DNA from: Planctomycetota bacterium
GTDB lineage: Bacteria; Planctomycetota; B15-G4
Direction: 5' to 3'
Assembly: GCA_029259715.1 (NCBI GenBank)
Contig: JAJDEP010000010.1
Span: forward strand, 124,001-188,000
Length of the DNA: 64,000 nucleotides
Shown: piece after piece, positions 8,894 to 34,672 of the stretch
Numbering within the stretch: position 1 is the stretch's first letter
Layout: every line of letters starts with the position of its first letter
Notes under the pieces: model-generated
Seen by the model: only the letters and a program-made list of their open reading frames with translations
Told to the model about the DNA's origin: nothing
Database searches by the model: none
Translations under genes and position numbers: made by a program

Positions 8894-8917
8894 GGGCGGC
8901 CGCGATGGTGATACAGA

Positions 8918-8994
8918 TGGTAGCGGAGGAGGGATTCGAACCCCCGACACGCGGATTATGATTCCGCTGCTCTAACCAACTGAGCTACTCCGCC
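8918..8994 (-). tRNA. tRNA-Met (anticodon CAT)
   Basis: Complete cloverleaf on the minus strand: acceptor GGCGGAG pairs with CTCCGCT (one G-T at the end), D arm GCTC/GAGC, anticodon stem GCGGA/TCCGC with loop ATCATAA, T arm with TTCGAAT, discriminator A and an encoded CCA (8918-8920). The CAT anticodon and overall sequence fit elongator tRNA-Met; a lysidine-modified tRNA-Ile2 cannot be excluded from sequence alone. Confidence 0.93.
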
Positions 8995-9075
8995 AGGAGC
9001 GCCCGACATTCTGACCGAAGAGCGGTCTGCGAAGCCAGCCCCCCGGGGGGCCGTCGTCGAAGCGGCGGCCGCCCC

Positions 9076-10107
9076 GTGAGCCTGCGCGTGGACGAGTACC
9101 GCGAAGCGGACCGCGAGGCCCTGCTGGCCCTCAAGTGCTCCGTCTTCGGGGGCACCATCCTGGAGAACGAGCGCCGCCGCTTCGCCTGGGAGTTCGACCG
9201 GAATCCCGCGCGGGATTGGGGCCTGCCCCCGGCCCTGGTGGTCCGTGACGGCGGCGAGCTGGTGGCCGGCTTCACCTTCGTCCCGAGCAGCGTGAGGGTC
9301 GCCGGGGAGCGGGTGTCCGGCGCCGCCGGCATCGACCTGTGCGTGGCGGCCAGCCACAGGGGGCAGGGCCTGGGCCGCCAGGTCGTCGAGCCCTTCTGGG
9401 CGGAGGGCCTGTGCACCTTCCCCTTCTCCACCGGCGTGAATCCGGCGTCCTTGCACCTCTTCTCCTCGTGCGGGGCCACGTTGCTCGGCGGTGCGGAGGA
9501 GGTGACCCTGCACGCCTGGTTCCGCGATGGGGCGCCGACCGAGCCGGACGAGGGCGAGGTCCGCCCCGTCGCCGTGGTGGAGGACATCCCGGCCGACTGG
9601 GACGCCTGCTGGGCCGATCTCGTCGTCGACCACCCGCTGGTGCTCGAGCGCGACGCCGCCTCTCTCCGCTGGCGCTACGTCGAATTCCCGTTCGCGCGCC
9701 CGGTGGTCCTCGCCGCCAGCGACGACGACGGGCGCACCTGCGGGCTGGCGGTGGTGCAGGCCGACCCGGGCCTCGACCGCGTCTACCTGCTCGAGCTCCT
9801 CACCGCGAAGGACGACGCCGCGGCGCAGCGGGGACTCGTCGCCGCTGCCCTGGGCCTCGCGCGGGAGAGCGGTCTCGCCACTCTCTACTACTCCACCCGC
9901 CGGGCCGAGCAGCAGCCGATCCTGCGGGCGGCCGGTTTGCAGCCCGTGCCGGGCGCCTATCCCACCTACATGGGCAAGCTCAACCTCCCCGGGGCCTCGC
10001 GACCCGACGCCGTGAGCGGCTGGACCGTCTCCCTGGGGGACGGCGATCAGCTCTTCAACGTCGGCGAGCCACGCCCGGGGGACGGCCCGTCCCCGACTAT
10101 GCTGTGA
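9076..10107 (+). CDS. GNAT-family N-acetyltransferase
   Basis: Acetyltransferase-like protein, 343 aa, beginning with GTG 9076. Residues about 5-130 form the GNAT fold; the acetyl-CoA-binding motif A is SHRGQGLGRQVV (Q/R-x-x-G-x-G type) near residues 93-104. The second half (about 160-330) looks like a further GNAT-like or substrate domain with STRRAEQQPILRAAG near its end. Similar double-domain proteins lie in glycan and natural-product clusters. It precedes a PIG-L-type deacetylase by 7 bases, so an acetyl-transfer/deacetylation pair is suggested, but the substrate is unknown. Confidence 0.8.
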   Translation: MSLRVDEYREADREALLALKCSVFGGTILENERRRFAWEFDRNPARDWGLPPALVVRDGGELVAGFTFVPSSVRVAGERVSGAAGIDLCVAASHRGQGLGRQVVEPFWAEGLCTFPFSTGVNPASLHLFSSCGATLLGGAEEVTLHAWFRDGAPTEPDEGEVRPVAVVEDIPADWDACWADLVVDHPLVLERDAASLRWRYVEFPFARPVVLAASDDDGRTCGLAVVQADPGLDRVYLLELLTAKDDAAAQRGLVAAALGLARESGLATLYYSTRRAEQQPILRAAGLQPVPGAYPTYMGKLNLPGASRPDAVSGWTVSLGDGDQLFNVGEPRPGDGPSPTML

Positions 10108-10114
10108 GACCGTC

Positions 10115-10939
10115 ATGTCCACCGACCCCACCACCGCCGCCCTGATCCTCGAGCATCAGCGCTTCATCGACGTGTTCCTGGGACGGCAGGTGGTGGAATT
10201 CCCGGCGGCCACGCGCGTGCTGGTCGTCGCCCCCCATCCCGACGATGCGCTGCTCGGGCCCGGCGGCACCACGCTCAAGTACACCGCTGCGGGCGTGCCG
10301 GTGCACTGGGTCTGCATCACCGACGGCCGCGCCTGTGTCGGCGACCCGCGCGAACGGGCGCGCCTGGCGAGCGTGCGCGCCGATGAGGAGCGGGCCTGCG
10401 CGGCCGCCATGGGCCTGCCCGAACCCGAGCTGTACGACATCCCGGAAGATCGGTTCACGGACGCCGACCGCCGGGCCGAGTGCGTCGAGCGCCTGCGCGC
10501 CTCCGTGCGACGCGTCGCGCCCGATGCGATCTTCGTCCCGTACATGCTCGAGACCCATCCCCTGCACCGGCTCACGACGCACCTGCTCGCCGAGGCCCTG
10601 CGTGACGAGCCGATCGCGGCCACCGTCTACAACTACGCGGTGGCGTCGTTCCCGCTGCCCGGACTCGTGGTCGACATCAGCGCGCAGTTCGCGCGGAAGC
10701 AGGAGCTGTGTGCGCACTATGCGTCGCAGCTCGCCTTGCGCGATTACGCCGGGGAGCTCGAGCTGCTCAACGGCTTCTTTGCCGCCTACGCGGGCGCGGG
10801 CACGACCCATGCCGAGCTCTTCTTCCCTCAGGATCGGGAGGCCTTCGTCGGGGAAATCCTGGGCCGGGGCCTGGGCGATCCAGCGACCCTGGGAGTCGGA
10901 ATTCAGCCGTTGGTACCCGAGGATTCGGGACCCGCCTGA
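10115..10939 (+). CDS. PIG-L/LmbE-family deacetylase
   Basis: Zinc-dependent N-acetylglucosaminyl-type deacetylase fold, 274 aa. The signature PHPDD is at residues 40-44 and a later metal-binding region reads THPLHRLTTH. The residue after PHPDD is usually Glu and here is Ala, while the following GPGGT is conserved. Family members deacetylate GlcNAc-linked lipids or thiols such as mycothiol and bacillithiol precursors. It follows the GNAT gene closely and is probably co-transcribed with it; the natural substrate cannot be told from context. Confidence 0.85.
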   Translation: MSTDPTTAALILEHQRFIDVFLGRQVVEFPAATRVLVVAPHPDDALLGPGGTTLKYTAAGVPVHWVCITDGRACVGDPRERARLASVRADEERACAAAMGLPEPELYDIPEDRFTDADRRAECVERLRASVRRVAPDAIFVPYMLETHPLHRLTTHLLAEALRDEPIAATVYNYAVASFPLPGLVVDISAQFARKQELCAHYASQLALRDYAGELELLNGFFAAYAGAGTTHAELFFPQDREAFVGEILGRGLGDPATLGVGIQPLVPEDSGPA

Positions 10940-11417
10940 CGGCCTGGGCCCCGCCGAAGCCCCGTGATCCGGAGGCTTCTGCCTGGCTTCTCCACAGGGC
11001 CCTGTCCTTCTGAAACTCCCGGGATCGGCCGATCCGCGCAGAATCCGCCCATCCGGGACGAACGCTCCACAAGTCATCCCCTGTCGGGCGACGAGTTGCC
11101 AACCCGCGAGAGGGCCGCGCTCCTCGACGGGCTCCTCGACGCGCTCCTCGACCATGCCCTCGAGGGCCCGGATGAGGGGCTGCCACAGGCCCCCATTTTT
11201 TCCCCGATTTCCGTGTGCGGAACCGGTCGAAGGCGGCATCTATACTGTGTGTGATCGGTACGGGGGGCAGCCCCGGCATTCGTACTGCCCGACGAAGCCG
11301 GAAGGCAATCCCCGATCAAATACCGATCGTTTGTTCATCATTCAGCCAAGGTTGCGCGGCAATCGCGCGTAAAACCCTCCTCCCCCCTTTCCCGAAAAAT
11401 CCTTGGCTGGATGATCT
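10940..11417. other. Noncoding stretch between PIG-L gene and ruvC
   Basis: No convincing gene is seen in these 478 bases; the open frames here are short and lack recognisable domains. The right part is less GC-rich than its surroundings. It holds the inverted repeat at 11337-11415 and pyrimidine runs near 11377-11390. Two genes converge on it, so it is mainly a 3'-end region. Confidence 0.5.
11337..11415. repeat. 15-bp inverted repeat, 49-nt spacer
   Basis: ATCATTCAGCCAAGG at 11337-11351 is repeated in inverted orientation as CCTTGGCTGGATGAT at 11401-11415, 14 of 15 bases pairing. It lies just beyond the ruvC stop. It could act as a transcription end for the converging genes or be the ends of a small non-autonomous element; there is no clear T run. 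Confidence 0.6.
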
Positions 11418-11930
11418 TTATCGGCCCCGCGCCATCGGCGCGGACGTCGCCTGACGGTGCAGGGAAGCAATGGCGACGGCGAGCGCGTCCGTCGCATCCA
11501 GGGGGATCCGGGACTCATTGCGAGTGCGGTAAGACGGGCCGAGGAGGACGCCGACCATATGCCCCACCTGTTCCTTGGTCGCCGAACCCCGCCCGGTGAC
11601 GGCCTTCTTGATCTCGGTCGGCGCCAACTCGACCAACGGCAGGCTGGCACGGCCCACCTCCGCCAGCAGTGCGCCCCGCGCCTGGCCGAGGGTCACCAGC
11701 GAGCGCGTATTGGGACCGTGGAACACCGTCTCCATACCGACGCAACCGGGCCCATGCTGCGCGATGAGGTCCGCCAGACCTTGGGACAGCCCCGCCAGCC
11801 GCACGGACAGCGGCTTGCCCCGACCGGGTCGCAGAACACCCATGCCGATCAGCTCAAGCTGGCTGCCTCGCTGGCGGACGACACCCCAACCCGTGACCTG
11901 CGAGCCGGGGTCGATGCCGAGCATGATCAT
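11418..11930 (-). CDS. ruvC: Holliday junction resolvase RuvC
   Basis: Endonuclease that resolves four-way junctions with RuvAB, 170 aa, normal for the family. The RNase-H-like acidic residues are in place: Asp7 in GIDPGSQVTG, Glu67 in VGMETVFHGPN and the Asp pair of LDATDALAVA near 145-148. The loop SLVTLGQARGA is also typical. ruvA and ruvB are not adjacent; ispD is divergent, starting 30 bases from the ruvC start, so the short gap must hold both promoters. Confidence 0.95.
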   Translation of the reverse strand: MIMLGIDPGSQVTGWGVVRQRGSQLELIGMGVLRPGRGKPLSVRLAGLSQGLADLIAQHGPGCVGMETVFHGPNTRSLVTLGQARGALLAEVGRASLPLVELAPTEIKKAVTGRGSATKEQVGHMVGVLLGPSYRTRNESRIPLDATDALAVAIASLHRQATSAPMARGR

Positions 11931-11959
11931 GGGCCCATGGTAACGGTCGGGAACGCACG

Positions 11960-12676
11960 ATGAACGCTCCGGTCATCGTTGTTGCCGCGGGCACCGGATC
12001 GCGCCTCGGCGGCACCACCCACAAGGCCCTGGTCTCGCTGGCGGGCGAGCCCCTCGTGATCCACACGCTGCGACGCCTGATGGAATCGCCCCTGTGCGGG
12101 CCCTTCGTGGTCGTGGGCCACGCGGATGACCTCGAGCGGCTCACTGAGCTCTGCGCGCTTCTGCCCGGCGACGTCACCGTGACCCCCGGCGGCGCCCGCC
12201 GCCAGGATTCCGTCGCCGCGGGCCTCGCCGCCCTCGGGGCCGCCGATGCCCTGCCCCCCGACGCCATCGTCATGATCCACGACGCGGCGCGCCCCTTCGT
12301 CCCCGTCGCGGCGCTGCCCGCCCTTGCCGAGGCCGCCGGGCGTCATGGCGCCGCCGTCCTCGCCGTGCCGGTCACCGACACGCTCAAGCGCGCCCGTGAC
12401 GACGCGCCCGATCTCGTCGCTTCCACAGTCTCCCGCGAGGGCCTCTGGTCGGTGCAAACGCCGCAGGCCTTCGGCGCCTCGACGCTGCGCGACCTGCTCA
12501 TGACGGCCGACGCCGAACAGCGCTCAGTGACCGATGAGGCCACTCTTTTCGAGGAGAGTGGACGCGCGGTGGCCTTCGTGGAAGGATCGCCCCTCAACTT
12601 CAAGATCACGACGCCCCCGGATCTCGAGCTCGCTCGGATCCTGCTGGACGAGTCGCGACGAAAGGCCCAGGCATGA
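11960..12676 (+). CDS. ispD: 2-C-methyl-D-erythritol 4-phosphate cytidylyltransferase
   Basis: MEP-pathway enzyme coupling CTP to methylerythritol phosphate, 238 aa. The nucleotide-binding N-terminus is VVAAGTGSRLGG, a slightly altered form of the usual AAGxGxR loop, with GGARRQDSV, HDAARPF, VTDTLK and WSVQTPQAF all matching IspD. It overlaps ispF by ATGA at 12673, the order found in many bacteria. This indicates isoprenoid precursors are made by the MEP route in the cytoplasm. Confidence 0.95.
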   Translation: MNAPVIVVAAGTGSRLGGTTHKALVSLAGEPLVIHTLRRLMESPLCGPFVVVGHADDLERLTELCALLPGDVTVTPGGARRQDSVAAGLAALGAADALPPDAIVMIHDAARPFVPVAALPALAEAAGRHGAAVLAVPVTDTLKRARDDAPDLVASTVSREGLWSVQTPQAFGASTLRDLLMTADAEQRSVTDEATLFEESGRAVAFVEGSPLNFKITTPPDLELARILLDESRRKAQA

Positions 12677-13167
12677 CCCTCAGCGACAAGATCTCCATCG
12701 GCCTCAGTGTCGACGCCCACAAGTTCAAGCCGGGCGGACCGCTGATCATCGGCGGCGTCGAGTTCGACTTCGATCAGAGCATGGAGGGGCACTCCGACGG
12801 CGACGTGCTGCTGCACGCGGTCATGGACGCGGTGCTCTCCGCCGCCGACCTGCCCGACCTCGGCACGCTGTTCCCCGAGACCGACGAGAACGCCGGACGC
12901 AGCAGCGTCGACATGGCCCGCGAGGTGACGCGCCAGCTGAAGGTGCAGGGCATCCGCATCCTCAGCATCGACTCGGTGGTCTTGGCCCAGGCGCCGAAGA
13001 TCTCGCCGTTCCGCAGCCAGCTGCGCGAGTCGCTGGCGGCCTGCTTCGACATCTCGGTGTCGCGCGTCAACGTGAAGGGCAAGACCTTCGACCACATGGG
13101 CCCCATCGGCAACGCCGAGGGCATCGAGGCGCGGGCCGTGGCCCTCGTCGAGCGCGCCGGCGCCTAG
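12673..13167 (+). CDS. ispF: 2-C-methyl-D-erythritol 2,4-cyclodiphosphate synthase
   Basis: Trimeric zinc enzyme that closes the cyclodiphosphate ring after IspD and IspE, 164 aa. Metal ligands are visible in SVDAHKF and EGHSDGDVLLHA, and FPETD is conserved. The nucleotide-binding segment near the C-terminus, usually KATTTE-LGFTGR-EG, reads KTFDHMGPIGNAEG, an unusual version lacking the second Thr and the Arg. The remaining fold and its operon position make the assignment secure. Its last four bases overlap the converging glycosyltransferase gene. Confidence 0.92.
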   Translation: MTLSDKISIGLSVDAHKFKPGGPLIIGGVEFDFDQSMEGHSDGDVLLHAVMDAVLSAADLPDLGTLFPETDENAGRSSVDMAREVTRQLKVQGIRILSIDSVVLAQAPKISPFRSQLRESLAACFDISVSRVNVKGKTFDHMGPIGNAEGIEARAVALVERAGA

Positions 13168-14360
13168 CGCGCCGCCGTCTTGCGCGCCAGCGGACGGTCG
13201 CGCAGCACCACCGCGTAGAATTCGTCCACGGCGCGGGCCTGGCCGTCGAGGTCGAAGCGACGGCGGGCCGCAGCCAGCGAGCCCTCGGCCAGGCGCTTGC
13301 GCAGGGCGTCCTCCCCCACCATGCGCTCCATGCCGTGGGCCAGGCCGTCGATGCTCTCGTCCACCACCAGTCCGGTGACGCCGGCTTCCACGATGTCGGG
13401 CAAGGGCGCGCGCGGCGTCACGAGGGACGGCAGGCCCATGCACATCTGCTCGCGCAACGCGCGGCAGGTCCCGTCGGAACCCGGCACCAGGAACAGCGAC
13501 ACGTCGAGGGCCACGAGGGCGCCCGGGAATTCGTCGCCGCGCAGATAGCCGGTGGTGAGCACGCGGTCGGACAAGCCCATGTCCTTCACCGGATCGAGCA
13601 GCAACGGCTTGATGTGCGTGCCCCGTCCGATCACCACGAGCCGCGCCCGAGGCTGGCTCTCGGCCACCCGCTGGAAGGCGCCCAGCAGGATCTCGAAGCG
13701 GCGATGACCCTGGACACGGGCGACGATGCCGAGCCCGACGTCGTCGTCGGACAGGCCGAGCCGTTCACGTTCGGCGGCGCGATCGAAGCGCCCCGGGTCG
13801 AAGCGGGTGACGTCGATGCCCCCTTCGATGAGCGCCATGGGCCGGGGCTGGCTCGCCACCGACACCGAGCTGGTCGACCCGCCGTAGCGGGCGAGGGTGC
13901 CCGTCTTGGCCCCGGCGCTCGTGATGATCAGGCCGTCGAGAGCGCGGCGCGCCACCCGACGCACGCGCAGCGACCCGGCGAGGCCCTCGGCGTCGTAACA
14001 CGTGCGCACCAGGCGTCCGAGGCCGGCCCGGCGCACGGCCAGCGAGGCCACCCGGTGATCATTGTTCATGTGGGCGTGGACGATGTCCGGCCGGAACGCG
14101 AGCATCAACGCCGCGAGCCGTTCAACGTCCTCGCGGTTCTTGCGCCAGCTCGCGTGCTTCGTGAGATGGAAGCCGGCCGCCACCGGGACGCCCCGCTCCT
14201 CGGCCTGCGGGTCGATGCGCGAGTCGTGCTCGGACGGCGGCGTGCCGCTCAGGAAGAGCACCTCGTGCGCACCGGAGCGGACCTGGGCCCAGGCCAGATT
14301 GAGGGCCGGCTCGGCGGGGCCCGTCCATTTCCAATTGGAGAAGAGGTGCAGGATCCTCAC
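13164..14360 (-). CDS. Glycosyltransferase family 4
   Basis: GT-B glycosyltransferase, 398 aa. The N-terminal domain begins with ILHLFSNWKWTGPAEPALNL and includes DIVHAHMNNDHR; the C-terminal donor-binding domain includes GIVARVQGHRRFE, LVVIGRGTH, the E-x7-E-like segment REQMCMGLPSLVTPRA and GLVVDES. No transmembrane segment is evident, so it probably works at the inner face of the membrane. Likely role is transfer of a sugar in lipopolysaccharide, exopolysaccharide or glycolipid synthesis; donor and acceptor are unknown. Confidence 0.88.
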   Translation of the reverse strand: MRILHLFSNWKWTGPAEPALNLAWAQVRSGAHEVLFLSGTPPSEHDSRIDPQAEERGVPVAAGFHLTKHASWRKNREDVERLAALMLAFRPDIVHAHMNNDHRVASLAVRRAGLGRLVRTCYDAEGLAGSLRVRRVARRALDGLIITSAGAKTGTLARYGGSTSSVSVASQPRPMALIEGGIDVTRFDPGRFDRAAERERLGLSDDDVGLGIVARVQGHRRFEILLGAFQRVAESQPRARLVVIGRGTHIKPLLLDPVKDMGLSDRVLTTGYLRGDEFPGALVALDVSLFLVPGSDGTCRALREQMCMGLPSLVTPRAPLPDIVEAGVTGLVVDESIDGLAHGMERMVGEDALRKRLAEGSLAAARRRFDLDGQARAVDEFYAVVLRDRPLARKTAAR

Positions 14361-14566
14361 GGGGCCAACAGGCTATCCGCGCGCCTGCCGGACCTCAACG
14401 CAGGAGGGCCCCGACCGCCCGAGGGAGGCCGGCGAGCCCCTCGCGGCCACGGTGATCGAAGCCTCCAAATGCGACCACGACGACTTCAGCGGATACCGTA
14501 TCGCCATGCGCAACCCGACCATGCTCTGCCTGCCGCACGCGCTCCCCGAACGCTGATCCGGTCGGG

Positions 14567-23670: not shown

Positions 23671-25044
23671 TCAGTTCACCACCACCGTCTTGGCGTTCAT
23701 GAATTCGCGCGGGCCCCAGAGACCGAGTTCGCGGCCGTAGCCGCTGTCCTTGATGCCGCCGAAGGGCCAGCGCGGGTCGCTCTTGACGGAGCCGTTGACG
23801 AAGCAGCAACCGGCGTCGAGCTGCCGCGACGCGATGCGCCGGCCGCGTTCCCGATCGCGGGTGAAGACGGCGGCGCCGAGGCCGAAGGGCGAGTCGTTGG
23901 CGATCTCGACGGCGTGGTCGGCGTCGCGGGCCGCGATCAGCGCGGCCACCGGGCCGAAGAGCTCGTCGTCATAGGCGGGCATGCCGGGCGCGACGTCGGC
24001 GAGCACGGTGGGCGGGTAGAACGCTCCGGGCCCGGGCGGGATCTCGCCGCCGAGCAGCATCCGCGCGCCCGCGTCCACCGAGGCGCGCACCTGCTCGTGC
24101 AGCTCGTCGCGCAGATCCGGGCGGGCCATGCAGCCGAGGGTGGTGGCCTCGTCGAGCGGATCGCCCACGCTGTGGGCCGACATGGCTTCGGTGAAGCGCG
24201 CCTCGAACTCCTCGCGCACCGCCTCGACGATCACGAAGCGCTTGGCCGCCACGCAGCTCTGCCCCGCATTGGTCAAGCGGCTGGCGACGCAGGCCGACAC
24301 CGCCTGCTCGAGATCGGCGTCCTCGAGGATCACGTAGGCGTCGGAACCGCCCAGCTCGAGCACCTGGGGCTTGAGCAGCTCGCCGGCGCGCCGGGCGACG
24401 GCGCGGCCCGCCGGCGTGGAGCCGGTGAGCGTGACCGCGCGCACCTCGGGCAGGGACAGCACCGCGTCGACCTGCTTCGAGCCGATCAACACCGTGCGCA
24501 GCAGGTCGCTCGGGAAGCCGGCCTGGCCCACGAGCTCCTCGATGGCGAGCGCGCACCCCGACACGTTGCTGGCGTGCTTGAGCACGCCCGCGTTGCCGGC
24601 CGCCAGGGCCGGCGCGAGGAAGCGGAACACCTGCCACAGCGGGAAGTTCCATGGCATCACCGCGAGCACCACCCCCAGCGGCTCGTACACCGTGAAGGCC
24701 TCGGGCCCGTCGGGGTCGCTGGGCAGGGGTTCGTCGGCCAGCATCGCCGGGCCGAACTCGGCGTAGTGTTCGCAGACCCACGCGCACTTCTCGACCTCGC
24801 CGCGACCGTCCCGCACGGGCTTGCCCATCTCGCGGGCCATGAGCGTGGCCAGCTCGTCGGACCGGGCGCGCAGGGCCTGCGCCAGTCGGACCAGGGCGGC
24901 GCTGCGTTCGCTGTGGTCGCTGTGCTTCCACTTTGCCTGCGCCGCCGCGACGGCCCTGACGATCTGCGCGGCCTGTTCATCGGTGTGACTCTCGTAGCGC
25001 TGCAGCTCTTCTCCGGTGGCCGGGTTCACGCTCACGTTGGTCAT
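23671..25044 (-). CDS. NAD(P)-dependent succinate-semialdehyde dehydrogenase-like ALDH
   Basis: Aldehyde dehydrogenase, 457 aa, oxidising an aldehyde to the acid. The Rossmann part includes VMPWNFPLWQVFRF and VLKHASNVSG, the general base Glu230 is in VLELGGSDA and the catalytic Cys264 in NAGQSCVAAKRF. Length and motifs are closest to the Sad/GabD succinate-semialdehyde branch. The start overlaps the stop of the upstream TPP-enzyme gene by ATGA. That gene pair, with the same order of activities, is known from the cyanobacterial 2-oxoglutarate decarboxylase/SSADH bypass of the TCA cycle, so succinate semialdehyde is the likely substrate (inference). Confidence 0.88.
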   Translation of the reverse strand: MTNVSVNPATGEELQRYESHTDEQAAQIVRAVAAAQAKWKHSDHSERSAALVRLAQALRARSDELATLMAREMGKPVRDGRGEVEKCAWVCEHYAEFGPAMLADEPLPSDPDGPEAFTVYEPLGVVLAVMPWNFPLWQVFRFLAPALAAGNAGVLKHASNVSGCALAIEELVGQAGFPSDLLRTVLIGSKQVDAVLSLPEVRAVTLTGSTPAGRAVARRAGELLKPQVLELGGSDAYVILEDADLEQAVSACVASRLTNAGQSCVAAKRFVIVEAVREEFEARFTEAMSAHSVGDPLDEATTLGCMARPDLRDELHEQVRASVDAGARMLLGGEIPPGPGAFYPPTVLADVAPGMPAYDDELFGPVAALIAARDADHAVEIANDSPFGLGAAVFTRDRERGRRIASRQLDAGCCFVNGSVKSDPRWPFGGIKDSGYGRELGLWGPREFMNAKTVVVN

Positions 25045-26696
25045 GACTGCTGCTCCATCCGGCGCCGCACGTCCTCGGCCAGGTCCTCGGCCAGGCGATC
25101 GTTCTCGTCGTTGTCCACGGGGCAGTCCACCACCACCACGCCGCCCGCCTCGAAGCCCCGACGCAGGGTGTCGGCCAGCCCGTCGTCCTCACCCACGCGC
25201 AGGCCGAGGGCGCCGTAGGCCTGCGCGTACTTCACGAAGTCGGGGTTGCCGAAGCTCAGGCCGTGCTCCGCGAAGCCGTCCATCTTCTGCTTCCAGCGGA
25301 TGAACCCATACGCGTCGTCGCGCAGGATCAGCACCACCAGGTCGAGGCCGAGCCGCACGGCGGTCTCGAGATCCTGGCTGTTCATCATGAAGCCACCGTC
25401 CCCCGCCACCACCAGCACGCGCCGGTCGGGTTGCAGCAGCTTGGCGGTCATGCCGGCGGCCAGGCCCGCGCCCATGGTGGCCAGGGCGTTGTCCAGCAAC
25501 AGCGTGTTGTCGGCGTAGGTGCTGTAGCCCCGGGCGAACCAGAGCTTGGCGATGGTGTTGTCGAGGCTCACCACGTCGTGCCGCCCCATGACGGCGCGCA
25601 CGTCGTGCACCACGCGCTGGTAGGGCACGGGCACGCAGTCGTCGCAGGTGGCCGGGTGCAGCATGCCGTCGAGGATCTCGCGCAACCGAGCCTGCGCCGC
25701 ATCGGCGAAGTCGACGTCCCCGAGGCGCGCGCCCAGGCCCTCGAGGCTCGCGGCGATGTCACCCACCAGCTCGCATTTCGGGTTGTAGGCCAGGTCGGGC
25801 TCGGCCTCGGTGAAGTCCACGTGCAGGATCTGCTTGTCGTGGTTTCCGTTCCACACCGCCGGCGGATACTCGACGATGTCGTAGCCCACGCAGATCACCA
25901 GGTCGGCGCGCTCGATGGCCACGTGGGCCCCGTCCTGCTTGTGCAGGCCCAGGCTGAACAGGCTGCGCGGGTGGTCGTCGGGCAGCACGCCCTTGCCGGT
26001 CTGGGTGGCCACGGCGCCGATGCCTGTGGTCTCGACGAAAGTGCGCAGCTGCACGCCGACCCGCTTGCGGTTCGCGCCGGCCGACACGAGCAGGACCGGG
26101 CAACGCGCCGCACGGATCAGCCCGGCGGCCTCGTCCAGCGCGGTCCCGTCGGCGATGGGCCGGCGCGCGACGACGCGACGCTGGGGCGCCCCGTCGGGCA
26201 CGTCCTCGCCCGCCACGTCCTCGGGCAGCTCCAGGTGCACGGCCCCCGGTCGCTCGCCCTCGGCCACCTTGAAGGCGTGGCGCACGAAGCGCGGGATCGA
26301 GGCGCCGCTGCTGATCGATTGGCTCCACTTGGTGAGCGGTTCGAAGCAGCCGACCACGTCCACCAGTTGGAAGTTGCCTTGCCGGTTGTCGTGCAGCGCC
26401 TTCTGGCCGGTGATGGCCACCAGGGGCATCCCGCCCAATTGCGCATGGGCGATGCCCGTGAGCAGGTTCGTGGCCCCCGGGCCGAGGGTCGAGAGGCACA
26501 CACCCGCACGGCCGGTGAGACGCCCGTGGGTCGCCGCCATGAACGCGGCGTGCTGCTCGTGCCGCGTGACCACGAACTCGATCGGGCTCTTACGCAGCGA
26601 CTCGAGCAGGTCGAGGGTCTCCTCCCCCGGCACGCCGAACACGTGGGTCACGCCTTCCTCGGCGAGACAGGCGACGAACAGGTCTGACGCATTCAC
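25041..26696 (-). CDS. TPP-dependent decarboxylase, acetolactate synthase-like; possible 2-oxoglutarate decarboxylase
   Basis: Thiamine-diphosphate enzyme, 551 aa from GTG 26696. The N-terminal PYR domain has FGVPGEETLDLL and the catalytic Glu47 in TRHEQHAAFMA; the central domain reads CPVLLVSAGANRK; the C-terminal PP domain has GDGGFMMNSQDLETA with RDDAYG where Asn is usual. It would be called an acetolactate synthase large subunit, but no small regulatory subunit or ilv gene is near. The partner instead is a semialdehyde dehydrogenase overlapping by 4 bases, matching the 2-oxoglutarate decarboxylase/SSADH pair described in Synechococcus. Acetolactate synthase or another 2-oxoacid decarboxylase remain possible. 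Confidence 0.82.
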   Translation of the reverse strand: MNASDLFVACLAEEGVTHVFGVPGEETLDLLESLRKSPIEFVVTRHEQHAAFMAATHGRLTGRAGVCLSTLGPGATNLLTGIAHAQLGGMPLVAITGQKALHDNRQGNFQLVDVVGCFEPLTKWSQSISSGASIPRFVRHAFKVAEGERPGAVHLELPEDVAGEDVPDGAPQRRVVARRPIADGTALDEAAGLIRAARCPVLLVSAGANRKRVGVQLRTFVETTGIGAVATQTGKGVLPDDHPRSLFSLGLHKQDGAHVAIERADLVICVGYDIVEYPPAVWNGNHDKQILHVDFTEAEPDLAYNPKCELVGDIAASLEGLGARLGDVDFADAAQARLREILDGMLHPATCDDCVPVPYQRVVHDVRAVMGRHDVVSLDNTIAKLWFARGYSTYADNTLLLDNALATMGAGLAAGMTAKLLQPDRRVLVVAGDGGFMMNSQDLETAVRLGLDLVVLILRDDAYGFIRWKQKMDGFAEHGLSFGNPDFVKYAQAYGALGLRVGEDDGLADTLRRGFEAGGVVVVDCPVDNDENDRLAEDLAEDVRRRMEQQS

Positions 26697-26800
26697 GGGC
26701 AGGTCTTCACGGGCAATCCTCGACGGGTGCGGGCGCCCACGATAGCGCTTTCCGTGTCGGCACCGGGTCGCGGGCCCCCTCCACCCAGCCGTCGCCCGCC

Positions 26801-27844
26801 CTACAGGGTGCACATCTCGTTGTTGTCGAAGTTGCGCCCGTAGAAGCCCATGTAGTCCACCTTGCGCTCGAGCGCTTCGATCACGTAGCGGCTGAAGTTG
26901 ACCTTGGTGAACTTCTGCGCGCTGCCGAGACCACCGGGACTGAACACGTTGATCTCCATCAGCTTGTCGCCGACGATGTCGAGGCCCACCAGGAACATGC
27001 CGTCCTGGACGAGCTTCGGTCGCACGATCTCGGCGATGCGGAGATCGGCGTCGGTGACCTCGGCCTCGGCCAGACGACCGCCGGCGTGGATGTTGCTGCG
27101 CATGTCGTCGCCGCCGCGGCGCCGTCGGAACGCGCAGAACTTGCCCTTCACCCGCAGGGGCCTGCCGTTCATGACGAACAGCCGCATGTCGCCCTCCGAG
27201 GCCGCCGGCAGGTATTCCTGGGCGATCACGTAGCCATCGCGGCTGACCGCGTCGATCATCTGGTTGAGGTTGGGCAGGTCGTCGGGACGGATCAGGAACA
27301 CGCTCGCCCCGCCTGAGCCCTGCATGGGCTTGATCACGATCTTGCCCAGCTCCTTGATCATGGAGCGGATCTCGCCCCGGTCCCGGGTGATCAGCGTCAC
27401 GGGCCGCACCTCGGCGGGGAAGAGCTGGAAGTAGAGCTTGCTGCCGGCCTTGGCCAGGCCGTTGGGATCGTTGACGACGATGACGCCCCGGCGCGCGGCC
27501 ATGCGGCCGAACTCGTGCGCGACGGTCGCGGCCCATGGCCGCGTCATGACGTCGTCCGAGGGCACGTTGCGCAGCATCAGCACGTCGAGGTCGCCCACGG
27601 TGATGCGCTCGGTGCGCGAGGTCTTGCCCTGCAGGTCGGCCAGGTAGGTCTCTTGGGACTTGTACTTCTTCGGCGCGATGGCCTTGGCCCGGGCGCGGAT
27701 CGATTCATCGAGGTCGTAGGCGAGATCGCCCACGCCCATCACGAAGACCTCGTGGCCGCGAATGGCCGCTTCGCAGCCGAGGCGTGTCGTCGTGAAGCCG
27801 GCGGCTTCGGTCATGACGTCGTTGACCAGGAACCCAATTTTCAT
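26801..27844 (-). CDS. GshB-like ATP-grasp ligase
   Basis: Glutathione-synthase-type ATP-grasp protein, 347 aa, with AAGGAG before ATG 27844. The N-terminus MKIGFLVND, RGHEVFVMGVGDL and the ATP-grasp core (VIKPMQGSGGASVF, DMRLFVMNGRPL, then LDIVGDKLMEINVFSPGG) line up with GshB. A tail of about 30 residues, FSRYVIEALERKVDYMGF and beyond, exceeds the usual length. No gshA is nearby, so the product could be another gamma-glutamyl or amide-linked peptide. It is 104 bases upstream of the TPP-enzyme gene on the same strand. Confidence 0.82.
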   Translation of the reverse strand: MKIGFLVNDVMTEAAGFTTTRLGCEAAIRGHEVFVMGVGDLAYDLDESIRARAKAIAPKKYKSQETYLADLQGKTSRTERITVGDLDVLMLRNVPSDDVMTRPWAATVAHEFGRMAARRGVIVVNDPNGLAKAGSKLYFQLFPAEVRPVTLITRDRGEIRSMIKELGKIVIKPMQGSGGASVFLIRPDDLPNLNQMIDAVSRDGYVIAQEYLPAASEGDMRLFVMNGRPLRVKGKFCAFRRRRGGDDMRSNIHAGGRLAEAEVTDADLRIAEIVRPKLVQDGMFLVGLDIVGDKLMEINVFSPGGLGSAQKFTKVNFSRYVIEALERKVDYMGFYGRNFDNNEMCTL

Positions 27845-28161: not shown

Positions 28162-29613
28162 ATGCTCCTCCGAATCCTGCTCTGCCTGCCCGAACCGACG
28201 CGCCAGGAGCACGTCCGCAAGGCCCTCGGGCGCCGAGCCCTCGTCACACGCGCCGCCAACGCTGAAGAGTTGTGGGACGCGCTGCGTGGGGACGTCTTCG
28301 ATCTGGCGATCCTGAGCGCGGACGCCCTGAGCCCCGATCCGCTGGCCTCCCTGCGGACCATCCTGGGCGTGTCGGACGGCCCGGATGTGATCCTCATCGC
28401 GCCCGGCGATCCGGAAGCGATTAGCGCCTACCTGGCGGCCGGCTGCCTCGCCGTGCTCGACGCGGGGCTGGGCGACGGCGATCTCATCGCCGCCCTGGAG
28501 GCGGTGACCACCCGTGCGAGCTCGACACGCGACCGCCGTGTGGTCGCCAACGCGCGCATCGATCGTCGCATCGACGCCATGGGAACGAGCAGCCCCGCCA
28601 TCCGTCGCTTCCAGGATGTGACCCGGCGCATCGCGGCCGGCGACTCGCCGGTCCTGATCCAGGGCGAGCCGGGCACGGGCAAGACCTGGCTCGGTCCCGT
28701 CATCCACCGCGAGAGCCCGCGGGCGAGCGGCGCTTTCCACAGCCTGCGCTGCAGCGACGTCGAGGCCGAGGCGCTCGAGGTCTCGTTGTTCGGTCACGCG
28801 GCGGACGCGCTCCCGGGGCCGCCCGCCGCTGAGCGGGGCATCCTGGAGCGGGCCCATCGCGGCACGCTGTTCCTCGAGCGCATCGACGGGTCGCCGTTGA
28901 GTTTTCAGCTGAAGCTGCTGCGCTACCTCGACGAAGGCAGGAGCCGGCGGGTCGGAGGACAGACCTGGAGCCATGTTGACGTGCGCCTGCTGGCATCCGT
29001 CGGGGACGACCCGGCCGCGCACGTCGAAGCCGGGACCCTGCACCCGGATCTCTACCGCCGCATCGGCCTGGTCAACCTCACGCCCCCACCGCTGCGCGAT
29101 CGACCCGAAGACGTGGCCGAGCTCGCATTGTCCGCACACCACAAGTGCAGCGCGCGGTACGGCCTGGCCGTCCAGGGCTTCACGGCCGCCGCGCTGGAGG
29201 TCCTGCAGCAGCACACCTGGCCGGGCAACGTGAGCGAGCTGTGGAGCGTGGTCGAGCGCTCCACGCTGCTCTGCCGGGGCGAGCGGATCACGGTCGAAGA
29301 CCTGCCGCCCGACATCGTTTCTCATGGGGAGGGCCGCTCGAGCGACGGATTCCTCGTTCTCGACGCCCCGTGGCTGCATGATTCCTCCCAGCTCCCGACG
29401 CTGCGGGAGCTCCAAGCCCAGTCACTCGAGGTCGTCGAACGGGCCTACCTGACGCAACTGCTGAAGTCTGTTTACGGCCGCGTGGCCGAGGCCGCCCGAC
29501 GTGCGGAGGTCGACCCGCGTTCCGTGTACCAGCGCATGCGCCGCTTCGGGCTGCGCAAGGAGGACTTCAAGTTGCCCCGCCCCCCGCTGCGCCGGAAACC
29601 TCGCGACACATGA
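28162..29613 (+). CDS. Degenerate NtrC-type (bEBP-like) regulator
   Basis: Three-domain regulator, 483 aa, of the NtrC plan with key residues lost. The receiver-like domain (1-120) has Ser52 in LAILSADALS at the phosphoacceptor Asp position. The AAA+ domain keeps Walker A GEPGTGKTW (168-176) and the arginine-finger region DLYRRIG, but Walker B is GTLFLER instead of GTLFLDE, and the sigma-54-contacting GAFTGA loop is absent: the segment after LFGH reads AADALPGPPAAERG. A Fis-type HTH closes the protein (GRVAEAARRAEVDPRSVYQR). It overlaps the MscS-type channel gene by ATGA. Probably a sigma-54-independent regulator; start codon has a weak ribosome site. Confidence 0.82.
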   Translation: MLLRILLCLPEPTRQEHVRKALGRRALVTRAANAEELWDALRGDVFDLAILSADALSPDPLASLRTILGVSDGPDVILIAPGDPEAISAYLAAGCLAVLDAGLGDGDLIAALEAVTTRASSTRDRRVVANARIDRRIDAMGTSSPAIRRFQDVTRRIAAGDSPVLIQGEPGTGKTWLGPVIHRESPRASGAFHSLRCSDVEAEALEVSLFGHAADALPGPPAAERGILERAHRGTLFLERIDGSPLSFQLKLLRYLDEGRSRRVGGQTWSHVDVRLLASVGDDPAAHVEAGTLHPDLYRRIGLVNLTPPPLRDRPEDVAELALSAHHKCSARYGLAVQGFTAAALEVLQQHTWPGNVSELWSVVERSTLLCRGERITVEDLPPDIVSHGEGRSSDGFLVLDAPWLHDSSQLPTLRELQAQSLEVVERAYLTQLLKSVYGRVAEAARRAEVDPRSVYQRMRRFGLRKEDFKLPRPPLRRKPRDT

Positions 29614-32600
29614 GGACGGGCGTGAGCAAGAAAGGTGTCATGCACGTCTCCCTCCGAATCATCGTGGCCGCACTCGCCTGGGGCGGGGTGCTGCTCGAGC
29701 CTGCGCCCGCCGCGGCCCAGGCCGTTCCCAACACCACCGAACTGATCGCCCTTCCGGGGCAGGACGGCATCACCCGCGAGGTCGCCCAGCAGCGCATCGG
29801 AGAGCTCGAGTCGGTCACCGACCCGGACGACGGACAGCGCGCCCGGCTCATCGAGACCTACCGGCAGATCGTCCAACGGCTCGAGACGCGCCTGACCAAT
29901 GCCGAACGGACCGAGGCCTTCCGCGCCGCCATCGAATCCGCCCCGCTGGAAGTGACGCGCCTGCGGACGGAGCTGGCCGCCGCCCGGGCCGCCGCGCCGA
30001 AGGACACGGTGCTCGACCCCGCCGCCACCGCGGACGGCCTGCAGCAGCGGTTGACCCAGGTCCAGGCCGAGCTGACCGAGCTGCGCACCCAGCTCGCGGA
30101 CCTCGACCGGCGCATCGGCGAAGAGCGCGAGCGGCCCGCCAAGGCCGAGCAGCAGCGTGCGGAGGTGCGCACCACCCTGGCTCAGCTCGCCGTGGATCTG
30201 GCCGCCCCCGAGCCCACGCCCGACGCGCCCGAATCCGTCCGCGCCGCGCGCGGGCTGCTGATCGCGCGCCACCGTTCGCGCACCGTCGAGCTGGCCATGC
30301 TCGAACAGGAACTGCTCAGCAACCCCGCGCGGGTGCTCGCGCTGGAGGCCCTGCGCGACCTCACCGTCTGGCGCGTCGCCGACGCCGAGGCCCGTGCGGT
30401 GCGGGTGGAGGGCTGGCTCAGCCAGGTGCGGCGCACCGAGGCCGACCGCGCCCGCATGACCGCCGAACGCCTGAGCCAGGAGGCCACGGGCAAGAACGCG
30501 CTCATCGTCATGCTGACCGGGCAGATCGCCGAGACGACCCGCGCCACCCAGCAACTGCTGCACCGCAGCGACGAGCTGCGGGCGGAGCGCCAGAAAGTCG
30601 ACGAGCGCCTGAGTCGGACTGAGGAGGACCTGCGCGAGACCAAGCGCTCCATGGACCTCGGCATCACGGGCTCGCTCGGCACGGTGCTGCTCGAGCGGCG
30701 ACGCCAGTTGCCCAGCGCGCGTTCGCTGCAGCGCGCGGCGGCGGAGCGAGCGGGCCGGGTCGCCGCCGAGCGGTTGAAGCTGTTCACCGACGAGCGGGAG
30801 ATCAAGGCCCTGGCCGATCCCGCCCGCGTCATCGAGGGCCTGATGAAGCGGCCCGAGGCGGTGGGCCTCGACGCCACCAACGACGCCGACGTGCTCACGG
30901 AGCTGCTGGAGAAGAAGACCGAGAGCCTGACCCAGCTGCAGAAGGCGCGGCAGGACCACCTGAACCTGATCGGCAACCTCGAGGCGCGCGAGGCGGCGCT
31001 GCTGTCCGTCGCGCGTGAGCTGGCGGCCATCCTCGACGAACGCTTGCTGTGGATCCCGAACGCCCCGCCGGTGAGCCGTGCCACCTTCGGCCGCCTGGGC
31101 GGAGACCTGGTCTGGCTGAGTTCATCCTCCCTGTGGAGTCAGGCTCTCGATGCCCTGACCGAGGATTTCGAGGCGCTCACCGCCGGCTACGCTCTGTTCG
31201 GGCTCGCACTGCTCGGCCTGTGGGTCCTGCGGATCCGCATGCGCACCCGCTTGCAGGCGATCGCCGGCCTCGTCGGCAAGGTGCGCACCGACAGCATCCT
31301 GCTCACGATCCAGGCGCTGGTGCTGCTGGCACTGCGCACCGCACCCTTGCCGGCGGCGGCCGCGCTCCTGGGCTGGCGACTCGGGCGCGCGGGGGCATCC
31401 ACCGATCTCTCCAAGGCCATCGGTGTCGGCCTGATCACGGCGGCGGTGGTCGGGTTCGTGCTGCAGTTCCTGCGCGAGCTCTGCCGCGAGAGCGGCATCG
31501 CCCGCGCCCACTTTCACTGGGGCAAGCGCACCGACCGCCTCGTGCGACGCGAGCTGCTCTGGTTCCTGGCCGCCGCCATCCCCACCGGCTTTGTGGTCGC
31601 CCTGATCCAGCAGCAGCCCGACGGGTTGTTGAGATTCAGCCTCGGGCGACTCACGTTCATCGTGTTGATGCTCGCCACCGCGGTGCTGGGCTACCGGCTG
31701 CTGCACCCCCGCAAGGGTCTGTACCTCGCGGCCGATAACCTCAAGGGTTCGGCCTGGCTGCGGCTGACCCGCCCGATCTGGCTGCCCCTCGGCGTGCTCG
31801 GCCCGCTCGTGCTCGGCGCACTGGCCGCCTCGGGTTACTACTACGCCGCGCTGCAGCTCGAGATCCGGCTCAACCAGACCGTGCTGATCATCCTGGCCGC
31901 GCTGTTCCTGCACGCCTTCCTGCTGCGCTGGTTGCAGCTCTCCCAGCGGCGGCTGTCGAAGAAGCTGGCTGATGAGAAGCGCGCCGCCGCCTTGAAGAGC
32001 CAGGAGGGCGCGGAGGGCCTCGCCGAGGGCGCGGAGTACACCGAGTCCGCTGATGAGATCGACATGTTCGAGATCAAGGAGCAGACCAAGGACCTGCTGC
32101 GGGTCGTGATCGGCTTCCTGGTGTTGATCGGCTTCTACCTGGCCTGGGTCAGCGTCCTGCCTGCGCTGGGCGTGCTGAACCAGGTGGAGCTGTGGGACCA
32201 CACCGCCATGGTCGACGGCGTGGCCACCCAGGTCTCGACCACGTTGGCCAGCCTGGGCATGGCGCTGCTCCTGATCGTGATCACGGTCACGGCGGCGCGC
32301 AACATGCCCGGCTTCCTCGAGATCGCCGTGCTGCAGCGCTTGCCCCTCGATGCCGGCGCGCGCTACGCCACGCGCACGCTGACCTTCTACGTCATCGTCG
32401 CCACGGGCATCGTGCTGGCCTTCAACTCCCTCGGCGTGGGCTGGTCGTCGGTGCAGTGGCTCGTGGCGGCCCTCACGGTGGGACTCGGTTTCGGCCTGCA
32501 GGAGATCTTCGCCAACTTCGTCTCGGGCCTGATCATCCTGCTGGAGCGCCCGGTGCGGGTGGGCGACACGGTGACGGTGGCCAACGTGAGCGGGGTCGTC

Positions 32601-33086
32601 TCACGCATCCGCATGCGCGCCACGACCATCACCGACTGGAAGCGGCGCGAGCTGGTGGTGCCCAACAAGGCCTTCATCACCAACGAGCTGATCAACTGGA
32701 GCCTGTCGGACCCGATCATGCGGCTCGACTTCGTCGTCGGCATCGCCTACGGCTCCGACACGACCCTCGCGCACCAGACCATGCTCGACGTCGCCCGGCG
32801 CCACCCCATGGTGCTCGATCAGCCGGAGCCGACGGTCTTCTTCATCGGCTTCGGCGACAACTCCCTCGAATTCGAGGTGCGCATCTTCGTGAGCGAATCC
32901 AGCAACACCGGACGCACGCGCATCCTGCACGACCTGCACATGGCCGTGGATCAGGCCTGCCGCGACCAGCAGATCACCATCGCCTTCCCGCAGCGCGATC
33001 TGCACTTCAAGTCGAGCGAGACGGTGCTCCGTGTCGCCCTGGAGCCCGACGAGTCCGGCAAGGCCGGCAACTCCCCGAGCGCCTGA
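29610..33086 (+). CDS. Large mechanosensitive channel, MscS/MscK family
   Basis: Giant MscS-superfamily channel, 1158 aa. A signal peptide (ALAWGGVLLEPAPAAAQA) leads into a periplasmic coiled-coil region (about 40-480, rich in RLETRLTNAERTE-type heptads). About ten membrane helices follow (about 520-930), then the MscS pore helix and beta domain: GLGFGLQEIFANFVSGLI near 958 and LLERPVRVGDTV, with DWKRRELVVPNKAFITNELI. Such MscK-like channels release solutes on hypo-osmotic shock. ATG 29610 overlaps the preceding regulator; an internal ATG at 29640 is an alternative start. Coupled translation suggests the regulator and channel share expression. Confidence 0.9.
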   Translation: MRTGVSKKGVMHVSLRIIVAALAWGGVLLEPAPAAAQAVPNTTELIALPGQDGITREVAQQRIGELESVTDPDDGQRARLIETYRQIVQRLETRLTNAERTEAFRAAIESAPLEVTRLRTELAAARAAAPKDTVLDPAATADGLQQRLTQVQAELTELRTQLADLDRRIGEERERPAKAEQQRAEVRTTLAQLAVDLAAPEPTPDAPESVRAARGLLIARHRSRTVELAMLEQELLSNPARVLALEALRDLTVWRVADAEARAVRVEGWLSQVRRTEADRARMTAERLSQEATGKNALIVMLTGQIAETTRATQQLLHRSDELRAERQKVDERLSRTEEDLRETKRSMDLGITGSLGTVLLERRRQLPSARSLQRAAAERAGRVAAERLKLFTDEREIKALADPARVIEGLMKRPEAVGLDATNDADVLTELLEKKTESLTQLQKARQDHLNLIGNLEAREAALLSVARELAAILDERLLWIPNAPPVSRATFGRLGGDLVWLSSSSLWSQALDALTEDFEALTAGYALFGLALLGLWVLRIRMRTRLQAIAGLVGKVRTDSILLTIQALVLLALRTAPLPAAAALLGWRLGRAGASTDLSKAIGVGLITAAVVGFVLQFLRELCRESGIARAHFHWGKRTDRLVRRELLWFLAAAIPTGFVVALIQQQPDGLLRFSLGRLTFIVLMLATAVLGYRLLHPRKGLYLAADNLKGSAWLRLTRPIWLPLGVLGPLVLGALAASGYYYAALQLEIRLNQTVLIILAALFLHAFLLRWLQLSQRRLSKKLADEKRAAALKSQEGAEGLAEGAEYTESADEIDMFEIKEQTKDLLRVVIGFLVLIGFYLAWVSVLPALGVLNQVELWDHTAMVDGVATQVSTTLASLGMALLLIVITVTAARNMPGFLEIAVLQRLPLDAGARYATRTLTFYVIVATGIVLAFNSLGVGWSSVQWLVAALTVGLGFGLQEIFANFVSGLIILLERPVRVGDTVTVANVSGVVSRIRMRATTITDWKRRELVVPNKAFITNELINWSLSDPIMRLDFVVGIAYGSDTTLAHQTMLDVARRHPMVLDQPEPTVFFIGFGDNSLEFEVRIFVSESSNTGRTRILHDLHMAVDQACRDQQITIAFPQRDLHFKSSETVLRVALEPDESGKAGNSPSA

Positions 33087-33104: not shown

Positions 33105-34283
33105 TTAGCCGGCGGGCGCGATCCCCTTGAAGAACGAGTACCGCAGCATCGGGTCATCCGCCCACTCGATGCGGAACTCCTCGTCGTCGCGGTGCTCGGC
33201 CCACCAGGCCCGCACCTCTGCGACCAGGTCAGCCCCTTGTTCCTCGATGGGGAGACCGACGATGCGCACGACCGCGAGGGCCGCCCGCTCCTTCAGGTCG
33301 AAGGCCTCGGTCAACCGGTCGGCCGGAATCGGCTCACGGGGAGCGCGGCCGGCGCCGGAGCGCTTGCCGAGCCCGACACCGCGCATGGTCAGCAGGTCGT
33401 AGGGGAAGTCTTCGTTCAGGAAGTCGGCGTAGGTGTGGATGGCGGAATTGCGCACACCCGGTGCGAGCCCTTCGCCCACGGTGAGCTGATCGACCACGTC
33501 GAGCCAGAAGTCGTAGCTCAACTCGTACGCGGTCATCCAGACCCCGTTGAGCGGCCCCTTCTTGAGGGAGTCCGGCATGGGCTCGTTCGGGTCGGGGACG
33601 AACGGGGTCGTCCGCGGACCCCGCTTCTCGCGCTCCTTCAGGAACTCCTTGTAGTCCCTGATCATCGGCTCGAGCGCGTCACTCTCGCGCTGGCCGAAGG
33701 TGACGCCGAGCATCTCCTCGCCCCACGCATCGATGAGCACGTAGTGCCCGAAGCGACGCCGGATCCAAGGATTGCCGGACAGTGCCCGCTCATGCCAGCG
33801 GAGGGCCGGCACGCCTTCGGGCATGCCGATGTCGGTGATGTCGATGCGCACCGGGATGGTCGCGGTGTTGATCAGGTTCTCGACGCTCGCTTCTGTGGCC
33901 ATGCGGACCCGCATGGCTTGGAAACCCATTCAGAAGTCGTCGTCGAGGCCGGGTTCCTGTTGCCGCGCGCTGAAGACGATGAGCACCGGCTTCTTCTGGG
34001 CCTGACCGAGTTCCATGGCCGCATGGATGTCGTCGGCCCACTTGATGTTGTCGAGTTCCGAGCAGGCCTCGCCCCGCACGCAGACGGGAAACTCGGGGTC
34101 GTCGGACTCGGCCGGCGGGGCCATGAAGTCGAACGAGGCGTCCTGCGCGCGAACCTCCGTGAAGGTCCAGCCGACGGCGAGGACGCAGACAGCCAAGCGG
34201 ATCCACCAGCGGGACCCTGCGGCCGAACGAGCGGCGCGCGGCGGGGTCGCCGAAAGGGCGGACGTGAAGGGGGTGCGGAGCAT
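33105..34283 (-). CDS. Thioredoxin-fold exported protein with in-frame UGA (candidate selenoprotein)
   Basis: Read as one frame of 392 codons, interrupted only by TGA at 33932-33930 (codon 118). ATG 34283 has GGGAGG 5 bases upstream; WWIRLAVCVLAVGW and VRAQD give a signal peptide. Residues 82-105 (WADDIHAAMELGQAQKKPVL, then IVFSA) are the first helix and strand of a thioredoxin_7-like fold. After the TGA the same frame continues MGFQAMRV and ENLINTATIPVRIDITD, the following helix and strand, so the TGA stands at the first Cys of C-x-x-C-x-x-M. A 9-bp hairpin with loop GGUC lies 12 bases downstream. Read conventionally this is two ORFs (33930-34283 and 33105-33929). Selenocysteine is the favoured reading; a nonsense mutation is the alternative. 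The C-terminal 200 residues are unrecognised. Confidence 0.6.
33898..33917 (-). promoter_or_regulatory. SECIS-like hairpin downstream of in-frame UGA
   Basis: On the coding strand GCCATGCG and CGCATGGC pair perfectly around the loop GGTC (the outer G-C of the loop can also pair). The loop begins 20 bases after the TGA. Bacterial SECIS elements have an apical loop 16-37 bases behind the UGA with a G in its first two positions; the E. coli fdhF loop also contains GGUC. The bulged U of fdhF is not present. Confidence 0.55.
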
Positions 34284-34672
34284 GCTGCCTCCCAGGAGTT
34301 CCTGAATCTTTGCCGTGAGGATGCGCCGCCGATCGTGCACTCAGCGCACGAACAGACGGTTTGGAGGTCCGGCGCCGGGGGCATCCAGAGCCCGGACCCA
34401 GCCTGTAAAACTACCCCTTCGGCATTTTTTGGTCAATTCCTCAAGACCGCCCGCCCGCCTCAGGAATCTCCCGTCCTGAATCGAGGCTGAGAGGCGGGTT
34501 GTGCCGAAAGCCGATTTCTCGCCCCTGACGGTTGCTTGGCGGGCTGACCTGGCAGTCATAACCAGTTGCAAGTCAAGCGCTTACGGATCCACGGGGAGCC
34601 TGATGCAGGCCAGGACGTGCCGGGCGGGGACGCGTTACAACTGTTCGTCGCGCCTCTCTCGGAATCCGCACC
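34284..34672. other. Divergent intergenic region
   Basis: These 389 bases between the candidate selenoprotein gene and the propeller-protein gene hold no convincing gene. The middle is AT-richer than the surroundings (run of T at 34425-34430), consistent with promoters; one for the leftward gene is listed separately. For the rightward gene only a weak TTGCTT ... TCATAA pair near 34530-34560 is seen. Confidence 0.4.
34408..34436 (-). promoter_or_regulatory. Putative sigma-70-type promoter for the thioredoxin-fold gene
   Basis: On the minus strand TTGACC (34436-34431) and TAGTTT (34413-34408) are separated by 17 bases containing an A run. This gives a leader of roughly 120 bases before ATG 34283. 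The -35 matches 5 of 6 consensus bases, the -10 only 3 of 6. Confidence 0.4.

Follow-up and report, generated by a model that had tools for sequence, protein, structure and literature searches.

Escherichia coli fdhF encodes a selenoprotein of the SECIS-SelB type, with an in-frame UGA and a downstream hairpin carrying a GGUC loop. The gene described here, on the minus strand of the window (the whole stretch of 64,000 nucleotides that was analysed), resembled bacterial SECIS-SelB selenoprotein genes in its UGA, in a GGUC hairpin downstream of it, and in the presence of selA, selB, selC and selD in the genome. Among named families, those nearest to its product in sequence are VPGUxxT types 1 and 2 (NF041382 and NF041383) and Trx7/PDZ (NF041199). 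The VPGUxxT families, of which type 2 is listed as OS_HP5 (PMC13188914), were like the window protein in being thioredoxin-like with a selenocysteine (Sec) or Cys active site, with remote similarity at window residues 76-147, but the window protein differed in its F-U-M-G-F site, without VPGU, and in a different C-terminal region. Trx7/PDZ was alike, by name, in having a Thioredoxin_7-type domain, but differed in that the window protein gave no match to it and in that CxxU is the motif given for the family (PMC13188914 Table 1). Proteins of the Thioredoxin_7, DsbH and AGR2-AGR3 group (PF13899, PF03190; 3f9u, 3ph9, 2ju5) were alike in predicted fold, whereas the window protein differed in having Sec for Cys, no second Cys, a longer segment before Sec, and C-terminal helices.

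The gene (33105-34283, minus strand) comprised 392 codons and a TAA stop, with one TGA, at residue 118, probably read as Sec, and homologues aligned on both sides of it. As the earlier note had described, the frame was broken by the TGA at 33932-33930 alone and stayed open downstream; 117 codons ran from the ATG at 34283 up to the TGA, and 274 codons lay beyond it. Insertion of Sec at this UGA is very highly probable, with the same column occupied by TGA or Cys in relatives. The fuller reading, an exported selenoprotein in which the UGA would be read as Sec by means of the genome's own machinery and the hairpin, the product being an oxidoreductase of the Thioredoxin_7 kind, is highly probable. 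The same internal TGA at the same place in distant relatives points to a selenium protein family absent from the catalogues compared.

Codon-position GC was alike before (0.67/0.51/0.89) and after (0.68/0.45/0.89) the TGA, and the adjacent channel gene had similar values (0.71/0.46/0.93). TGA junctions in the window were scanned for length and for a coding-like composition to either side, and 2 sites remained, that of the gene at 33932-33930 and another at 49436; the latter was presumed to be an ordinary gene end. A Shine-Dalgarno-like GGGAGG (34288-34293, minus strand) was seen by eye 4 bases before the ATG. Residues 1-46 (34146-34283, minus strand) probably form a signal peptide, recognised by eye from a hydrophobic LAVCVLAVGWTF followed by VRA/QD, and a helix was modelled at residues 26-48; export of the product is probable from this signal-peptide-like N-terminus. 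Besides U118, the only Cys-type positions of the protein were C33, C68 and C74, C33 falling within the likely signal peptide.

NCBIfam and Pfam models were scanned, and none was matched at its cut-off by the window protein. VPGUxxT type 2 (NF041383) scored 13.8 bits (cut-off 275; E = 0.033), and the VPGU motif was absent from the window protein. Trx7/PDZ (NF041199) was not listed for it at E ≤ 10, a threshold to be read with the HMMER filters, which drop most matches above about 0.1. Among 19 aligned members, 13 matched NF041383 at E ≤ 1 and 6 matched NF041199 at E ≤ 1 (best 1.5e-7); one member, presumably L042 from its VPGU motif, matched NF041382 (VPGUxxT type 1) at 3.9e-198. Pfam PF13899 and PF03190 matched 9 and 11 of the 19 members (E ≤ 1). 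The long form of the family (below) matched no entry of the 119-family table of a 2026 review (PMC13188914), and the string 'planctomyc' was absent from the available text of that review.

The AlphaFold2 model, built with five sequences, had a mean pLDDT of 56, near 90 at residues 81-100 and below 50 at residues 108-120. Its elements (E100-105, H119-130, E143-148, H159-169, E180-184, E190-195, H200-221) followed the thioredoxin order, and in the model Sec118 stood at the N-terminus of helix 119-130, after the first core strand. A thioredoxin-like domain was placed at about residues 80-221 (33621-34046, minus strand) from the model, Foldseek and sub-cut-off Pfam Thioredoxin_7, followed by a mostly helical C-terminal region, residues 222-392 (33108-33620, minus strand), which was modelled with much low confidence and was partly common to the uncut long forms. 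A WW..H motif in this region was common to the window protein and to four relatives. The best Foldseek matches were 3f9u, AGR3, AGR2 and DsbH (probability near 1, best E 3.0e-3), with none at E ≤ 0.001. The profile of 19 proteins (A3) matched 3ira, 3f9u, 2lst and 7tkv in the PDB at E ≤ 0.01, and phmmer of the window protein against PDB sequences gave none at E ≤ 1. The score for Pfam Thioredoxin_7 (PF13899) was below the cut-off of 27 bits both when read through (16.0) and with the first half alone (16.5). The thioredoxin fold proposed in the earlier note was thus supported at modest confidence by the model and the fold search, and sequence gave it weak support (Thioredoxin_7, 16 vs 27 bits). 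A thioredoxin-like core with Sec at the active-site helix is accordingly proposed from the model with modest confidence.

The site read DDDFUMGF, that is, U-M-G-F without Cys three residues after Sec. The TGA had been taken for the first Cys of a C-x-x-C-x-x-M motif, which is contradicted by the U-M-G-F site and its lack of a resolving Cys. Between FSA and the TGA codon there were 11 residues (107-117), compared with about two in the CxxC relatives read (FTAAWC, L037).

Relatives were searched for in 58 genomes, and later, with profiles, in a sample of 392 genomes of the phylum. The 58 genomes yielded one relative besides the window protein (E 7.5e-6), with a TGA at the aligned residue too and GGGTCC at the same distance. 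The profile of these two sequences matched in 23 of the 392 Planctomycetota genomes. Its 28 match rows corresponded to 26 loci that were read, L047 and L048 being omitted since each was the second fragment of a protein already in the count; 19 of the 26 loci had an in-frame TGA and 7 had none. The alignment of 19 proteins (A3) took 19 of the 26 loci, L026, L045 and L049 entered only the alignment of long forms (A2), and L037, L041, L043 and L044 were left out of the alignments as CxxC thioredoxins, by eye. Searches with a two-sequence alignment in genome contigs and with a four-row alignment in viral contigs confirmed 0 of 102 and 0 of 40 stretches, respectively.

The long form consisted of 7 proteins of about 350-440 residues from 5 genomes (the window, G037, G069, G177 and three in G201), 2 of them cut by contig ends; G069, G177 and G201 are Planctomycetota MAGs. 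The other six were 23-33% identical to the window protein. All 7 had TGA in the same column, with no Cys version among them. When the phylum sample was searched with a profile once more, the same long forms came back, together with a C-terminal fragment in G201; in this MAG (C548, C58, C245, C334) there were three long-form genes with TGA, the C-terminal fragment being the fourth. The short form, mostly of 190-275 residues (337 in L039), aligned with the long form. When both forms were aligned (19 proteins), 16 had TGA in the column and 3 had Cys, so that in the aligned homologues the position corresponding to residue 118, which the earlier note had singled out, was TGA or Cys and never Trp. 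With three more long forms added to the 16 of A3, all 19 TGA-bearing aligned proteins, the window protein included, shared the column. A Cys directly preceded Sec in 9 of the 11 short-form TGA proteins, and a lipobox-like sequence occurred in seven short forms (both by eye).

It is somewhat more probable than the contrary that the long form represents a Planctomycetota family without a known Cys counterpart, exported, of thioredoxin fold, with an unpaired Sec, a C-terminal region of its own and a Sec-dependent function, with as its sister a short form having mostly vicinal Cys-Sec, and Cys in three genomes without SelA. A Sec-dependent function, if true, would mean that methods needing Cys homologues may miss the family.

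Other thioredoxin-like proteins with TGA were also found. In the 13 other genomes of the class of the window, the long form had only five weak, partial matches. Two of these, in the order of the window (L051 in G013 and L052 in G009), were thioredoxin-like with an in-frame TGA and U-V-D-C, a third in that order (L053, G011) had an in-frame TGA and VPGU-A-T-C, and the remaining two were without TGA, L055 reading WCVPC. No second long form was seen in the order of the window, where the UxxC and VPGU kinds were seen. The later profile searches, that of this class included, brought numerous additional weak matches, some with TGA and some without, and nine of these loci were read; three more, from other families, also had TGA at a thioredoxin-type site (RCUGG in L089, HCUAT in L091, AUASC in L096). 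The UVDC, VPGU, RCUGG, HCUAT and AUASC proteins indicate that there are several kinds of thioredoxin-like TGA proteins in the phylum, the long form being one of them. Genome G056 had three TGA-bearing matches.

The source genome (4.23 Mb, 20 contigs, 92.4% complete) contained selA, selB, selC and selD, the complete set that the earlier note had called for. SelA, SelB and SelD were named by NCBIfam models above cut-off, and the tRNA-SeC had the anticodon tca. SelD read ANCAGUAAK across an in-frame TGA (L020, just upstream of 12524, minus strand), and is likely itself a selenoprotein; this motif fits the UxxK listed for Sec-containing SelD (PMC13188914). The selC, selD and selA genes lay on one strand within about 6 kb, with other ORFs interspersed (L020, G000:C15:575000-594000, 8208-14470), and selB about 480 kb from them on the same contig.

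Of the 16 genomes carrying a TGA form, 15 had SelA, and the one without a hit (G177) was 77% complete; none of the 3 genomes with a Cys form had SelA. It was also present in 3 of the 4 genomes with only CxxC thioredoxin-like matches, in one of them (G326) at E 1.4e-35 only. The association of SelA with the TGA form was moderate and not overwhelming, because the phylum background was already 240 of 392 genomes (E ≤ 1e-60). The clearest case of the association is a pair within one genus, with TGA and SelA in G118 (L034), and Cys without SelA in G147 (L036); with this pair, the short form offers a natural comparison of Sec to Cys inside one genus.

The SECIS-like hairpin (GCCATGCG-GGTC-CGCATGGC; 33898-33917, minus strand) had its GGUC loop at 33909-33906. 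A hairpin whose stem begins 12 bases, and whose GGUC loop begins 20 bases, after the UGA had been reported in the earlier note and was found as such, with a stem (GCCATGCG/CGCATGGC) of 8 bp instead of 9. Compared with sequences in which the peptide was recoded synonymously, the window hairpin was significant neither in folding energy (p = 0.42) nor in stem length (p = 0.17). For this peptide, a hairpin as good as that of the window would be expected by chance; the signal in excess of chance lies in the relatives, where the TGA is conserved and the hairpin is too, though less evenly. Rfam gave 3 matches over 901 bases, all below the gathering score.

Four of the 7 long forms made up the long-form hairpin alignment (A4); the register suited the remaining 3 less well. 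In these four (the window, G037, G069 and G201c), 28 of 32 cells paired in one fixed register, with changes on both sides at 3 of the 8 pairs, and at most 50% of cells paired when the partner was slid. With free register and synonymous codons redrawn, the 28/32 of the four long forms had p = 0.0027, and 34/40 with G201a added had p = 0.0013; all the hairpin nulls, that of the short forms below included, preserve the peptide but ignore relatedness at silent sites. The register of the long forms gave 6, 6 and 3 of 8 pairs in G201a, G177 and G201b, with loops TGAG, TTCG and GCAA. An 8-pair hairpin with its loop 44 bases after the UGA, beyond the range of 16-37 bases quoted in the earlier note, was present in G201a and G177 (p = 0.017 and 0.027), and G201b had only 5 pairs at the far position. 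The far hairpin of L025 and L026, whose loop lies 44 bases beyond the TGA, could be a SECIS of an unusual kind.

The short-form hairpin alignment (A5) comprised 11 segments, with L042 left out; one set of short-form tests used 10 loci, with L039 and L042 left out, and the test with one sequence per genus used 6 loci. In the latter, 28 of 30 cells paired in the shared register, above all 3000 draws. Pair counts of the short forms gave no covariation (71.2% of cells paired vs 71.6% shuffled). Among the short-form or VPGU sequences with TGA, 8 of 12 paired at 5 of 5 positions in the shared register, and the others at 3, 3, 2 and 1. The Cys homologues L031, L036 and L038 paired at 4, 4 and 2 positions in that register, so the hairpin does not cleanly separate Sec from Cys forms. 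Covariation was borne out in part, by compensatory changes in the four long forms, but less by the fit of the other three and not by the short forms. A SECIS-type hairpin directly downstream of the UGA is conserved across species in 4 of the 7 long forms.

The Sec machinery, the TGA/Cys column and the covariation of the hairpin in the four long forms support a selenocysteine reading. A true stop at the TGA is highly improbable. Such a stop would leave the downstream part to a second protein, made by translational coupling from the adjoining ATG (TGAATG), and there is an ATG directly after the TGA in the window from which an ORF of 274 residues is possible. In the six remaining long forms, however, the TGA was followed by AGC, AGG, CTG, CTA, AAG or GGA, so re-initiation there is not general; the break would also split the predicted thioredoxin fold, separating the first core strand from the active-site helix, the same column was Cys in three relatives, and no Shine-Dalgarno-like sequence was seen by eye before the downstream ATG. 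Recurrence of TGA in the same column in other genomes (19/19 TGA-bearing proteins, the window included) and coding-like codon-position composition on both sides of it largely refute a pseudogene, or an error of sequencing or assembly, and leave it scarcely credible, despite a multi-contig assembly (20 contigs, 92.4% complete) that would favour it. Reading of the TGA as another amino acid (e.g., Trp), by a variant code or general readthrough, is extremely improbable: no point in its support was found, the column was Cys and not Trp in three aligned relatives without TGA, the genome had tRNA-SeC with SelA, SelB and SelD, and the composition scan left one other TGA junction in the window.

That the selenoprotein encoded by the gene is just a divergent member, of ordinary kind, of the VPGUxxT or Trx7/PDZ families is unlikely. 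The weak NF041383 match of the window protein (E = 0.033), the matches of 13/19 members to NF041383 and of 6/19 to NF041199, the one NF041382 match at 3.9e-198, and the presence of TGA relatives with VPGU and UxxC in the window's own order all agree with it. Its score of 13.8 bits is set against a cut-off of 275, however, and the window protein is without VPGU, has a longer segment before Sec, and shares its C-terminal region with long forms alone.

In the preferred reading, that of an exported selenoprotein, ribosomes would read the UGA at 33932-33930 as Sec with SelA, SelB, tRNA-Sec, SelD and the downstream hairpin. The product would be an oxidoreductase of thioredoxin fold and Thioredoxin_7 type, in which Sec sits at the N-terminal end of the active-site helix and the C-terminal region is helical. 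Outside the cytoplasm, Sec would react with a peroxide, an oxidised residue or a disulfide, and a partner thiol would resolve the intermediate; in the window protein this thiol may be provided by the N-terminal pair Cys68/Cys74. A single-selenol reaction is proposed because there is no Cys at the resolving position, and such chemistry outside the cytoplasm would be the most likely one, at an about even chance of being correct. If the selenoprotein reading is true, standard annotation, with TGA as a stop, splits the gene and misses the protein, and an apparently exported single-Sec redox protein is added to a phylum with SelA in 240 of 392 sampled genomes.

No shared gene neighbour or clue to the substrate was found with Pfam in ten ORFs of two relatives. 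In one MAG (L102), a peroxiredoxin-like ORF (3796-4356) lay upstream of the long-form gene, with one ORF between. In the window, the convergent neighbour (29610-33086) was a large mechanosensitive channel gene with MscS porin, transmembrane and channel domains, and an aldehyde dehydrogenase gene and a TPP-enzyme gene adjoined each other at 23671-27536 on the minus strand.
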